From the NCBI RefSeq assembly GCF_000403395.2, contig NZ_KE159657.1, forward strand, positions 798,762 through 862,761: 64,000 nt of DNA. Direction: 5' to 3'. The notes beneath the pieces are model-generated. The model saw only the letters and a program-made list of their open reading frames with translations. It was not told where the DNA came from and did not search any database. The stretch is from Anaerotruncus sp. G3(2012). GTDB taxonomy: Bacteria > Bacillota > Clostridia > Oscillospirales > Ruminococcaceae. Shown here piece after piece: positions 1,800 through 62,657 of the stretch; the first letter of the stretch is position 1; each line of letters opens with the position of its first letter. Made by a program: the position numbers and the translations under genes.

Positions 1800-3188
1800 T
1801 CAAATTTCATGATGCAGAGCAGATTCTACTAAGCGGCAGACTTCGGCCATCGTCAGGCCCTGTTCTGCCGCAATCTTTTTTAGATCCTCGAATTCCGGTT
1901 TTGTGCGGCGGACTCCATAACCGGATGCAGTTTTTACCCGAACTGGGCCAAAAGCGGTCTCCACCGTGGAGATTTGATATTCGAGCGTTTCACGCTTGCA
2001 AAGGCGGCTGCGCACACCGAGTGTGGTTGTGTGCAGCAACATCAGATGGGTGAATTTTTCCTGCTCCTGGGGCGTACAGAGGCAGGTCAGCAGATAGGCA
2101 GGGCGGTTCTTTTTCATGTAAATTGGGGTGGTAAACACGTCCAGTGCACCATTTTCCAATAGGAGGTCTGCTGCAAATCCGAGCGCTTCCGATGTGATAT
2201 CATCAAGGTTGCAGCAGAGTTCAACAATCTCTTCCTGGGCATGGCCGGTTTCGCCCAGAAACGCCCGGAGGCAGTTGGCGGCTTCAAAAGTTTTATGTCC
2301 CATTCCGTAACCAATCCCAGAAGCTGACATCTGTGGCATTTCGCCGAACCGAGAGGCAAAATGCCGGAGCAGGGCCGCACCAGTAGGGGTGCAAAGCTCC
2401 CCAGGTATCCGCCCACCGTAGATTGGGGCCCCTTGCAGGATATGGGCGGTGGCAGGCGCTGGAACAGGGAGAACGCCGTGTGCACAGCGGACCGTTCCAC
2501 AGCCGACATGGATAGGGGAGACGACCACCTCATCTGCGCCGATCAAGTGAAACAGCAGACAACATCCAACGACGTCCGCAACCGCGTCTAGGGAACCGAC
2601 CTCGTGAAAATGAATCTGGTCGATCGGGGCACCGTGAGCATGGGATTCTGCGTCACCGATCAGGCGATAGACTGCCGCAGCATCTTTTTTGACGGTTTGC
2701 GGCAGATCGAGCTGCTCGATCCGTTCACAGATGTCCGCATAGCTGTAGTGGTGATGCGAGTGATTGTGGTCATGCAGATGGCTGTAGTTGTGCGGGTGAT
2801 CGTGGTCGTGCGGGTGATCGTGGTCGTGCGGGTGATCGTGGTCGTGCGGGTGGCTGTGGTCGTGCGGGTGGCTGTGGTCGTGCGGGTGGCTGTGATCGTG
2901 CGGGTGGCTGTGATCGTGGTGGTCGTGCGAGTGATCGTGGTCGTGCGGGTGATCGTGGTCGTGCAGGTGGTCGTTGGCTGGTTCCTCCTGTCCACGCACC
3001 AGAATTCGCATTTGTGTGCCGTTAATCCCGCATTTTTGCGCAGGTATGGCTTCTACAGTGATTTCCGGAAGTCCCAGATGGTTGATCTGCTGCAAAAACG
3101 CCTGCTTGTTTGGACAGATTTCAAACAAGGCAGCCATCAGCATGTCGCCAGCAGCCCCCATATTGCATTCCAGATAGAGTGTTTTCAT
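1800..3188 (-). CDS. larC: Nickel pincer cofactor biosynthesis protein LarC, His-rich
   Basis: LarC is the CTP-dependent nickel insertase that completes the nickel-pincer nucleotide cofactor of lactate racemase and related LarA enzymes. The start MKTLYLECNMGAAGDMLMAAL and the later GCGTVRCAHGVLPVPAPAT are family hallmarks. Residues about 73-147 are an almost pure His/Asp/Pro/Ser stretch, a likely nickel store, which raises the length to 462 from roughly 400. In Lactiplantibacillus plantarum LarC is made from two frames by frameshifting; here it is one uninterrupted frame. It overlaps the end of larB by four bases (ATGA), so translation is probably coupled. It is last in the larE-larB-larC operon; no larA is present in the window. 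Confidence 0.95.
   Translation of the reverse strand: MKTLYLECNMGAAGDMLMAALFEICPNKQAFLQQINHLGLPEITVEAIPAQKCGINGTQMRILVRGQEEPANDHLHDHDHPHDHDHSHDHHDHSHPHDHSHPHDHSHPHDHSHPHDHDHPHDHDHPHDHDHPHNYSHLHDHNHSHHHYSYADICERIEQLDLPQTVKKDAAAVYRLIGDAESHAHGAPIDQIHFHEVGSLDAVADVVGCCLLFHLIGADEVVVSPIHVGCGTVRCAHGVLPVPAPATAHILQGAPIYGGRIPGELCTPTGAALLRHFASRFGEMPQMSASGIGYGMGHKTFEAANCLRAFLGETGHAQEEIVELCCNLDDITSEALGFAADLLLENGALDVFTTPIYMKKNRPAYLLTCLCTPQEQEKFTHLMLLHTTTLGVRSRLCKRETLEYQISTVETAFGPVRVKTASGYGVRRTKPEFEDLKKIAAEQGLTMAEVCRLVESALHHEI
2755..2990 (-). repeat. 18-bp tandem repeats in larC coding for the His/Asp stretch
   Basis: About a dozen 18-bp units (period GTGATCGTGGTCGTGCGG on the plus strand, with GGCTGTGGT variants) encode alternating His-Asp-His-Pro and His-Ser-His-Pro hexapeptides of LarC. 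Near-identical neighbouring units point to recent slippage or unequal exchange, so the number of histidines should differ among strains. All units are multiples of three and keep the frame. Confidence 0.9.
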
Positions 3189-4836: not shown

Positions 4837-4924
4837 CCTCCTTTACGATAAAAAGGCCCACCAAAGGTGAGCCTTCAGGCTGTTTCAGCAGGCGGCTTCT
4901 GCCGCATCCGTACGCTTCAGCGTT
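4837..4924 (-). promoter_or_regulatory. Hairpin leader with intrinsic terminator before larE (candidate attenuator)
   Basis: Between the promoter and larE lies a roughly 95-base leader. In transcript order it can form ACGC-UGAA-GCGU (4923-4912), GCGGC-AGAA-GCCGC (4905-4892), GCUG-AAA-CAGC (4889-4879), and a ten-pair hairpin AAGGCUCACC-UUU-GGUGGGCCUU (4875-4853) followed by a U run. An alternative AGCC-UGAA-GGCU (4881-4870) would break both the third hairpin and the terminator. The Shine-Dalgarno follows six bases after the U run. No other gene lies between this promoter and the terminator, so the terminator must be read through for any lar expression. I do not recognise it as a known riboswitch class. 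Confidence 0.65.
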
Positions 4925-4930
4925 TTTTCT

Positions 4931-4959
4931 ATAGTACAATACGCAGGCGGGGTTGTCAA
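4931..4959 (-). promoter_or_regulatory. Sigma-A promoter of the larEBC operon
   Basis: Reading the minus strand, TTGACA (4959-4954), a 17-base spacer and TACTAT (4936-4931). Transcription would start near 4924, about 95 bases before the CTG start codon. Confidence 0.85.
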
Positions 4960-5035: not shown

Positions 5036-5075
5036 AAAAAAGCGGCTTGAACCGTACAGGTTCAAGCCGCTTTTT
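5036..5075 (-). terminator. Bidirectional intrinsic terminator after the Cys-rich gene
   Basis: Seventeen-pair stem AAAAAGCGGCTTGAACC with loop GTACA; T runs on both strands. It ends the cysteine-rich gene on the minus strand and insulates the lar promoter. Confidence 0.92.
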
Positions 5076-5095: not shown

Positions 5096-5428
5096 TTACC
5101 GAGCGCAATAGAGGTCCTGGCAGCAGAGCCAGCGTGGATGGGCAAAATCTGGCCAGAATCTGTTTCTGCAATCGGCAGGGTACATGCCGCAGAAGCCGTT
5201 CTGGTCGCGGCAGATGCGCATTTCCCGGGAATCAGGGCAGTTTTCCTCGACCGGATACCATTCGCAGTCTTTCCCGGTGCAGCCGCTGACCGGCTGGATT
5301 TTGCAGTCGTTTTTGACTGTTGGCCGCTTTTTCTCGCAGCAGCAACAGCAACAGTTACAACAACCGCAGCAGTTGCAGCAACCACAGCAATTACAGCAGC
5401 ATCCTCCATTGTTGTAGCAGAAAGCCAT
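5096..5428 (-). CDS. Cysteine-rich small protein (28 Cys in 110 residues)
   Basis: Function not recognised. The N-terminal 31 residues consist almost only of CC pairs separated by N or G (CCNCCGCCNCCGCC), ending in six consecutive cysteines, then EKKRP. The C-terminal half has regularly spaced single cysteines (NDCKI, SGCTGKDCEW, ENCPDS, RICRD, GFCGM, ADCRN, LCCQD, YCAR) and aromatic residues. No signal peptide. A metal-binding or disulfide-crosslinked (for example spore-coat-like) role is possible but unproven. AAGGTG precedes ATG 5428; an overlapping ATG four bases upstream opens another frame. A strong terminator follows, which supports a real single-gene unit. Confidence 0.65.
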   Translation of the reverse strand: MAFCYNNGGCCCNCCGCCNCCGCCNCCCCCCEKKRPTVKNDCKIQPVSGCTGKDCEWYPVEENCPDSREMRICRDQNGFCGMYPADCRNRFWPDFAHPRWLCCQDLYCAR

Positions 5429-62329: not shown

Positions 62330-62657
62330 GGTGATTCTCCTCCTAATGATTCCTTTGAAAACTGCGGTGCAGGATTTCCGGGAAATATCGTCCGCTCCAA
62401 ATAAAAAACGGTCCGTCCCTCCAAAAGGGACGAACCGCTGAAAAGCGTCCGTGGTACCACCCATATTCCCAGCCAAGGCCGGGCACTCCTGCTGCCGGTA
62501 ACGGGGCAAACCGTCTGCCGCCTACTTCTTCCGGTTCAGCGGAGCCGCTCACGGGCGAACTTCACCTGTTTCCACTGCAGTTTGCTTTCAGCCGGTGACA
62601 AACCTCTCTGAATCAGCGGGGGACAGGCTACTTTCCCGATCTCAGCGTTGTTACTGT
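62330..62657 (-). promoter_or_regulatory. T-box riboswitch, Phe type, controlling pheS-pheT
   Basis: Class: tRNA-sensing T-box. The T-box core GGGTGGTACCACGG is at 62462-62449. Its antiterminator arm competes with a terminator stem CGGTTCGTCCCT / AGGGACGGACCG (62437-62409) followed by six T (62408-62403). Candidate specifier triplet TTC (Phe) is in GTGAAGTTCGCCCG (62559-62557 for TTC). Uncharged tRNA(Phe) should stabilise the antiterminator and raise pheST expression. Confidence 0.93.

Follow-up and report, generated by a model that had tools for sequence, protein, structure and literature searches.

The larE, larB, and larC genes of Anaerotruncus sp. G3(2012) are preceded by an RNA element that is real, conserved, and tied to genes for the nickel-pincer cofactor and for nickel-type uptake. 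The element is built of repeated small hairpins with GAA-containing loops, and its layout is the one expected of an antitermination leader. By computation, we identified these hairpins, their covariation, a terminator, a mutually exclusive pairing with that terminator, a recurrent gene context, and co-occurrence with the protein family DUF3842. On balance, we favor the view that the element is the antitermination leader of a nickel and nickel-pincer-cofactor supply regulon, in which a trans-acting factor would stabilize the GAA-loop hairpins, with DUF3842 as the leading candidate. Throughout, "the window" is the whole 64-kb stretch of DNA analyzed, and coordinates are window positions.

Results

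A Hairpin-Rich Leader Precedes larE, larB, and larC

Lar proteins synthesize the nickel-pincer nucleotide. Three lar genes lie on the minus strand of the window, each scoring above its NCBIfam cut-off:

4829-4083, minus strand: larE (TIGR00268, 243 bits, cut-off 150), with a probable CTG start
3946-3185, minus strand: larB (NF033503, 297 bits, cut-off 175)
3188-1800, minus strand: larC (TIGR00299, 212 bits, cut-off 90; NF052512, 146 bits, cut-off 50)

The start region of larE has no ATG, GTG, or TTG; a CTG (4829-4827, minus strand) lies 7 nt past the Shine-Dalgarno sequence and is kept in the nearest relative, G005. LarC (1800-3188, minus strand) carries a long His-Asp-rich repeat that might serve as a metal store. 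The next gene upstream of the leader (5099-5428, minus strand) encodes a small, very cysteine-rich protein with CCxCC repeats and no family match. Between the promoter and the Shine-Dalgarno sequence of larE-larB-larC is a leader of ~95 nt, laid out as follows; hairpins and the Shine-Dalgarno sequence were read from the sequence:

4959-4931, minus strand: promoter of the leader, TTGACA-17-TACTAT (10/12 matches in a promoter scan)
4923-4912, minus strand: P1, consensus hairpin ACGC-UGAA-GCGU
4905-4892, minus strand: P2, consensus hairpin GCGGC-AGAA-GCCGC
4889-4879, minus strand: GCUG-AAA-CAGC hairpin of non-consensus type, present in G005 too
4881-4870, minus strand: P3, consensus hairpin AGCC-UGAA-GGCU, the proposed antiterminator
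4876-4852, minus strand, U run to 4850: intrinsic terminator GAAGGCUCACC-UUU-GGUGGGCCUUU (-16.3 kcal/mol)
4843-4837, minus strand: Shine-Dalgarno sequence AAGGAGG of larE

A first-pass annotation of the window had described two mini-hairpins with UGAA loops and one with an AGAA loop, which we see at P1 and P3 and at P2, respectively. It had also proposed that the AGCC-UGAA-GGCU pairing and a full terminator are mutually exclusive, and this was borne out: the 3' arm of P3 belongs to the terminator. The U run ends just before the Shine-Dalgarno sequence, as the same annotation had stated. P3 and the GCUG-AAA-CAGC hairpin compete for bases 4881-4879. The promoter had been called strong; it is not significant alone because the scan expects 0.7 such sites by chance in that 1 kb.

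To gauge chance, we defined a consensus hairpin as an NGAA or ANGAA loop on a stem of at least 4 bp. The leader has three in 93 nt, a number that dinucleotide shuffling never reached in 20,000 trials (mean 0.05), with the loop pattern having been set after the relatives, which are independent sequences, were viewed. No second triplet of consensus hairpins within 60 nt exists on either strand of the 64 kb. The folding energy of the window leader is unremarkable (z -1.79; 9/200 shuffles were equally low), and its terminator was not in the output of an automated terminator scan. The covariance model R1 scored 15.7 bits (E 0.033) on the window leader and, under strict filters, matched nothing at E 1 in the genome of the window.

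No Rfam covariance model, NiCo and guanidine-II included, matched the window leader at gathering score, and a survey of 18 leader loci yielded one tRNA and nothing else; membership in a known class such as NiCo, which the first-pass annotation had named as one finding that would count against a new element, was therefore seen in neither. Sub-threshold matches (e.g., Thr_leader) fell mostly on the adjoining hairpin at 5037-5075, and a 14.6-bit lncRNA match overlaps both the larE start and the leader. The adjoining hairpin is a strong one of 17 bp with T runs on both strands, and is probably a two-way terminator. The only Rfam match in the window above gathering score is a T-box leader at 62423-62652 (minus strand), far from the lar leader.

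GAA Loops Are Conserved on Variable Stems

The larE loci came from 61 whole genomes, 25 of which gave a match, and from the best 80 of 257 in a named collection. A census of every loop, and hence free of selection for structure, was taken over 94 distinct larE upstreams. On stems of at least 5 bp, AGAA led the tetraloops (43/330; next, 9) and AGGAA led the pentaloops (35/305; next, 7), whereas both were outside the top 12 in the control, the coding sequence of the same genes. The loop consensus is C-NGAA-G or C-ANGAA-G, with cAGAAg the commonest (54 counted), and the stems are varied: 110 CAGAAG/CAGGAAG hairpins have 37 different 4-nt stems. Consensus hairpins are paired, their loops mostly 13-17 nt apart.

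At least two consensus hairpins precede larE at 47/92 loci versus 0/92 coding and 0/92 shuffled controls, and at least one does so at 60/92 loci versus 4/92 coding and 7/92 shuffled controls. The other 32/92 larE upstreams have no consensus hairpin; in G030 and G035 at least, the leader is found at a neighboring nickel-type gene and not at larE. In the R1 alignment of 66 sites, which was fitted to the structure, 96.5% of cells pair and 9/10 pairs vary on both sides. Sets A2 and A4 contain sequences selected for, or fitted to, structure; A2 was derived from A1 by removing 4/23 sequences as misaligned by MAFFT (L031, L038, L041b, and L057b). Covariation among orthologous leaders had been named beforehand as the test of the element, and it is present in the loop census, the R1 alignment, and the 92-locus counts. 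Weak LarE loci (L017-L025) were excluded from the census, from the loop and spacing counts, and from the exclusivity, DUF3842, and 92-locus tests. The last three tests also excluded L010 and L026, which are both larE copies from G014, and the duplicates or near-duplicates L037, L067, and L099.

A Consensus Hairpin and the Terminator Are Often Mutually Exclusive

Many leaders consist of two dual-hairpin sites, the second of which overlaps the terminator. The overlap takes two modes, in which the first hairpin of the second site gives either its 3' arm or its 5' arm as the 5' arm of the terminator. Under a loose rule, a terminator-like hairpin is found in 60/60 larE leaders with a consensus hairpin, and under a -15 kcal/mol rule in 54/60; this rule is weak because 52/92 coding controls (32/92 at -15 kcal/mol) pass as well. 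Exclusivity separates leaders from controls: a consensus hairpin is mutually exclusive with the terminator in 36/60 larE leaders (37 under the strict rule) versus 0/92 coding and 1/92 shuffled controls. A wider, hand-picked set gave a consensus hairpin in 83/115 leaders, among which 82 have a terminator, 54 have the exclusive pairing, and 29/83 have a consensus hairpin at the terminator tip, totals that are biased by 23 non-larE leaders chosen for visible hairpins.

The Leader Is Shared with Nickel-Type and ECF Transporter Genes

The first-pass annotation held that the terminator could regulate only larEBC. We found that the element is not private to these genes, since it also stands before a nickel-type transporter gene in the same genome (L372) and before ECF and FecCD genes elsewhere. 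In 13/25 larE neighborhoods, a same-strand gene for a nickel/peptide-type ABC binding protein follows at a distance of 2.9-4.8 kb. Four genomes have the transporter apart from larE with a leader of its own (L192-L195); nickel_nikA is the best NCBIfam model for all four binding proteins, each of which scores below the curated cut-off, and the nickel-binding protein 4ofl is among the two closest solved structures to the L193 protein. Close homologs of the L193 protein (69-72% identity) occur in 4/61 relatives, the genome of the window included (L371-L374), and a distant fifth (33%) occurs in G037. In 4/4 of L371-L374, the gene is preceded by a terminator-like hairpin together with one or more consensus hairpins. 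Three of the four scored for the exclusive pairing; at L371, the script picked a different hairpin.

Leaders also precede a FecCD permease gene (L127), a gene for an ECF transporter S component (G004, G056, G367, G427, G262, G239, and G410), and a methyltransferase gene with a NikB-like permease gene (G453). In G004, G056, G239, and G410, the gene after the ECF gene resembles kinases weakly at best; at L298, the kinase-like gene by the ECF gene occupies 2120-3034. The regulon looks narrow because an R1 search of 35 genomes placed the larE leader as top match in at least 21, with few other strong matches. A second search, R2, covered 391 genomes of the class, scoring only 17 candidates per genome, and nine genomes matched. 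Six of the nine loci (L292-L300) are leader-like, five before the ECF gene and one before the methyltransferase and NikB-like permease genes; we attributed L295, L297, and L300, all located within open frames, to chance. Among a set of 17 candidate places, ten (L185-L191, L196, L200, and L201) lie in coding sequence and were dropped, L199 is the G082 larE leader again, and L192-L195, L197, and L198 were kept.

The theme with the best support among the regulated genes is nickel, with the transporters assigned to the nickel type by sequence similarity. Among the ligands that the first-pass annotation had considered sensible (nickel, lactate enantiomers, or NAD precursors), nickel finds support, as this theme, and lactate finds none here. 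Speaking against a simple nickel picture, LarA above the Pfam cut-off is absent in 11/13 leader-bearing larE genomes searched (G062, G065, G066, G068, G071, G073, G077, G080, G082, G084, and G086). Among 37 relatives without a LarE match, with one 19-bit match disregarded, the ECF gene is present in 10/11 with LarA versus 9/26 without LarA (p = 0.003). We hypothesize that the ECF gene serves uptake of the nickel-pincer cofactor or its nucleoside, which this pattern would fit (ECF loci L311-L340).

DUF3842 Co-occurs with the Leader

In 15 genomes, the leader has a DUF3842 gene (PF12953) immediately before it in the same orientation: ten at larE (G061, G062, G066, G068, G069, G074, G076, G077, G080, and that of L060) and five at an ECF gene (G004, G011, G038, G056, and G367). 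The DUF3842 gene is beside larE and divergent in G002, G003, G006, and G010; in G065 and G078, it follows larE on the strand that larE occupies. A gene ahead of an attenuator and outside its control would be in the usual position of a regulator. In the genome of the window (G000), the DUF3842 gene is not close to lar or nik genes. G004 has a second DUF3842 copy ~2.5 kb from its LarA gene (C3:1663417-1666895).

DUF3842 is present in 33/35 leader-bearing genomes of one set and in 6/6 of another. Among larE genomes, 45/47 with at least two consensus hairpins have DUF3842 versus 30/44 with fewer (p = 0.0007, a value that ignores phylogeny and incomplete genomes); L078 has no DUF3842 datum in this count. 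At the ECF gene, at least two consensus hairpins are found in 9/16 DUF3842-bearing versus 0/9 DUF3842-less relatives (p = 0.008, again ignoring phylogeny and incomplete genomes), and at least one in 12/16 versus 2/9. The PxNxCDN of DUF3842 is lost in G000 (L250), G005 (L253), and G002 and G003 (L004 and L003), the larE leaders of which are without the pentaloop hairpin; protein and RNA might have drifted together.

An AlphaFold model of DUF3842 is confident (mean pLDDT 83.6) and of the Rossmann kind. Structure comparison returned generic Rossmann matches only and not a known RNA-binding fold, no solved relative was found by sequence, and a literature search found no paper naming DUF3842. RNA binding by DUF3842 would be a surprise because the fold is a generic Rossmann one, and the family may instead be a pathway protein. 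We regard DUF3842 as the best candidate for the trans-acting factor, in whatever role it might play.

Discussion

We suggest that the repeated GAA-loop mini-hairpins (C-NGAA-G and C-ANGAA-G), usually paired, are recognition units. By default, the nascent RNA would fold the intrinsic terminator before the Shine-Dalgarno sequence, and transcription would stop. A trans-acting factor, probably an RNA-binding protein, would hold the GAA-loop hairpins; the last held hairpin would capture an arm of the terminator, no terminator would form, and larEBC or the transporter would be expressed. We infer the protein binder, this sign of control, the signal, and any part played by DUF3842. Since nickel and the nickel-pincer nucleotide are what the genes under control provide, a shortage of one or the other is most likely what the factor reports.

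Several known systems resemble parts of this arrangement. The guanidine-II (mini-ykkC) riboswitch is a pair of small hairpins with the conserved loop ACGR; it shares with our leaders the tandem small hairpins, conserved loops, and variable linker, but the loop here is NGAA or ANGAA, the genes are others, and no Rfam match was obtained. The BglG/LicT-type RAT antiterminator is a single bulged hairpin. There, too, the regulator gene often stands before the attenuator and a protein-stabilized antiterminator is exclusive with the terminator, whereas the present leaders have repeated small hairpins and would involve another protein family. The NiCo riboswitch, linked to nickel or cobalt homeostasis, is a multi-helix junction controlling efflux genes, unlike the leaders, which have no Rfam match. 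CsrA-type sites carry GGA in every loop; we rejected them, as the commonest leader loop, cAGAAg, lacks GGA. In keeping with the first-pass remark that no RNA element had been described on nickel-pincer cofactor genes, none was found in Rfam or in a literature search. The main texts of two RNA-discovery papers (PMC8632094 and PMC11109978) do not mention larE, larB, nikA, nickel, or ECF transporters, and AGAA and DUF3842 are each absent from the main text of one of the two.

The binder might not be a protein. Tandem GAA-loop hairpins could bind nickel, the nickel-pincer nucleotide, or nicotinate nucleotide directly, in the manner of guanidine-II, and the conserved loops, the compact dual hairpins, the overlap with the terminator, and the nickel-type genes downstream would all suit such a riboswitch. 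We consider it unlikely: inter-hairpin distance and site number vary widely, the loops lack the self-complementarity required for a kissing dimer, a riboswitch gives no reason to expect the link to DUF3842, and no Rfam riboswitch matches. What is conserved is a repeated GAA loop and not a compact aptamer, and a bound protein is therefore somewhat favored; conserved loops with variable spacing suit a loop-binding protein. Still less probable is attenuation coupled to translation of a leader peptide. The window does have a suitable frame, with an ATG at 4906, ten codons, and a stop just before the terminator, but G005 keeps the hairpins without the ATG, and conserved loops on variable stems are not what a peptide needs, leaving this reading with hardly any credence.

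If a protein holds the hairpins, the ANTAR family has to be weighed. Leaders of EutV and NasR, as set out in PMC3369931 and PMC8934654, have the same architecture, a pair of small hairpins whose loops are conserved and of which the final one is exclusive with an intrinsic terminator, and ANTAR proteins are common (43/61 relatives; 30/35 leader-bearing genomes). However, the ANTAR sites described there are hexaloops that have A as their first base and G as their fourth, whereas our leaders have loops of 4-5 nt (NGAA and ANGAA) and often two hairpin pairs. A methionine of EutV may exclude tetraloops, as suggested in PMC8934654. Moreover, searches for an ANTAR domain came up empty in the genome of the window (G000, 96% complete) and in G002, both leader-bearing, neither assembly being complete. 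Owing to the loop type and to these two genomes, we rank an ANTAR partner low and think it quite improbable.

Returning to DUF3842, a bolder proposal can be framed, which we put forward tentatively and with more doubt than belief. DUF3842 would be a new kind of RNA-binding antiterminator that senses the nickel-pincer nucleotide (or nicotinate nucleotide, or nickel) and binds tandem GAA-loop hairpins. It would thereby control a nickel and nickel-pincer-cofactor supply regulon of Clostridia, comprising larEBC, nickel uptake, and, in genomes without larE but with larA, ECF import of the cofactor or its nucleoside.

In many gut Clostridia, similar leaders stand before genes for the nickel cofactor or for nickel-type uptake. 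If our reading is right, these leaders would represent tandem-hairpin antitermination with a loop code other than that of ANTAR, and would open a way to study the sensing of nickel or the cofactor in gut Clostridia. DUF3842 would also gain a candidate function, and a route of cofactor salvage would be hinted at.
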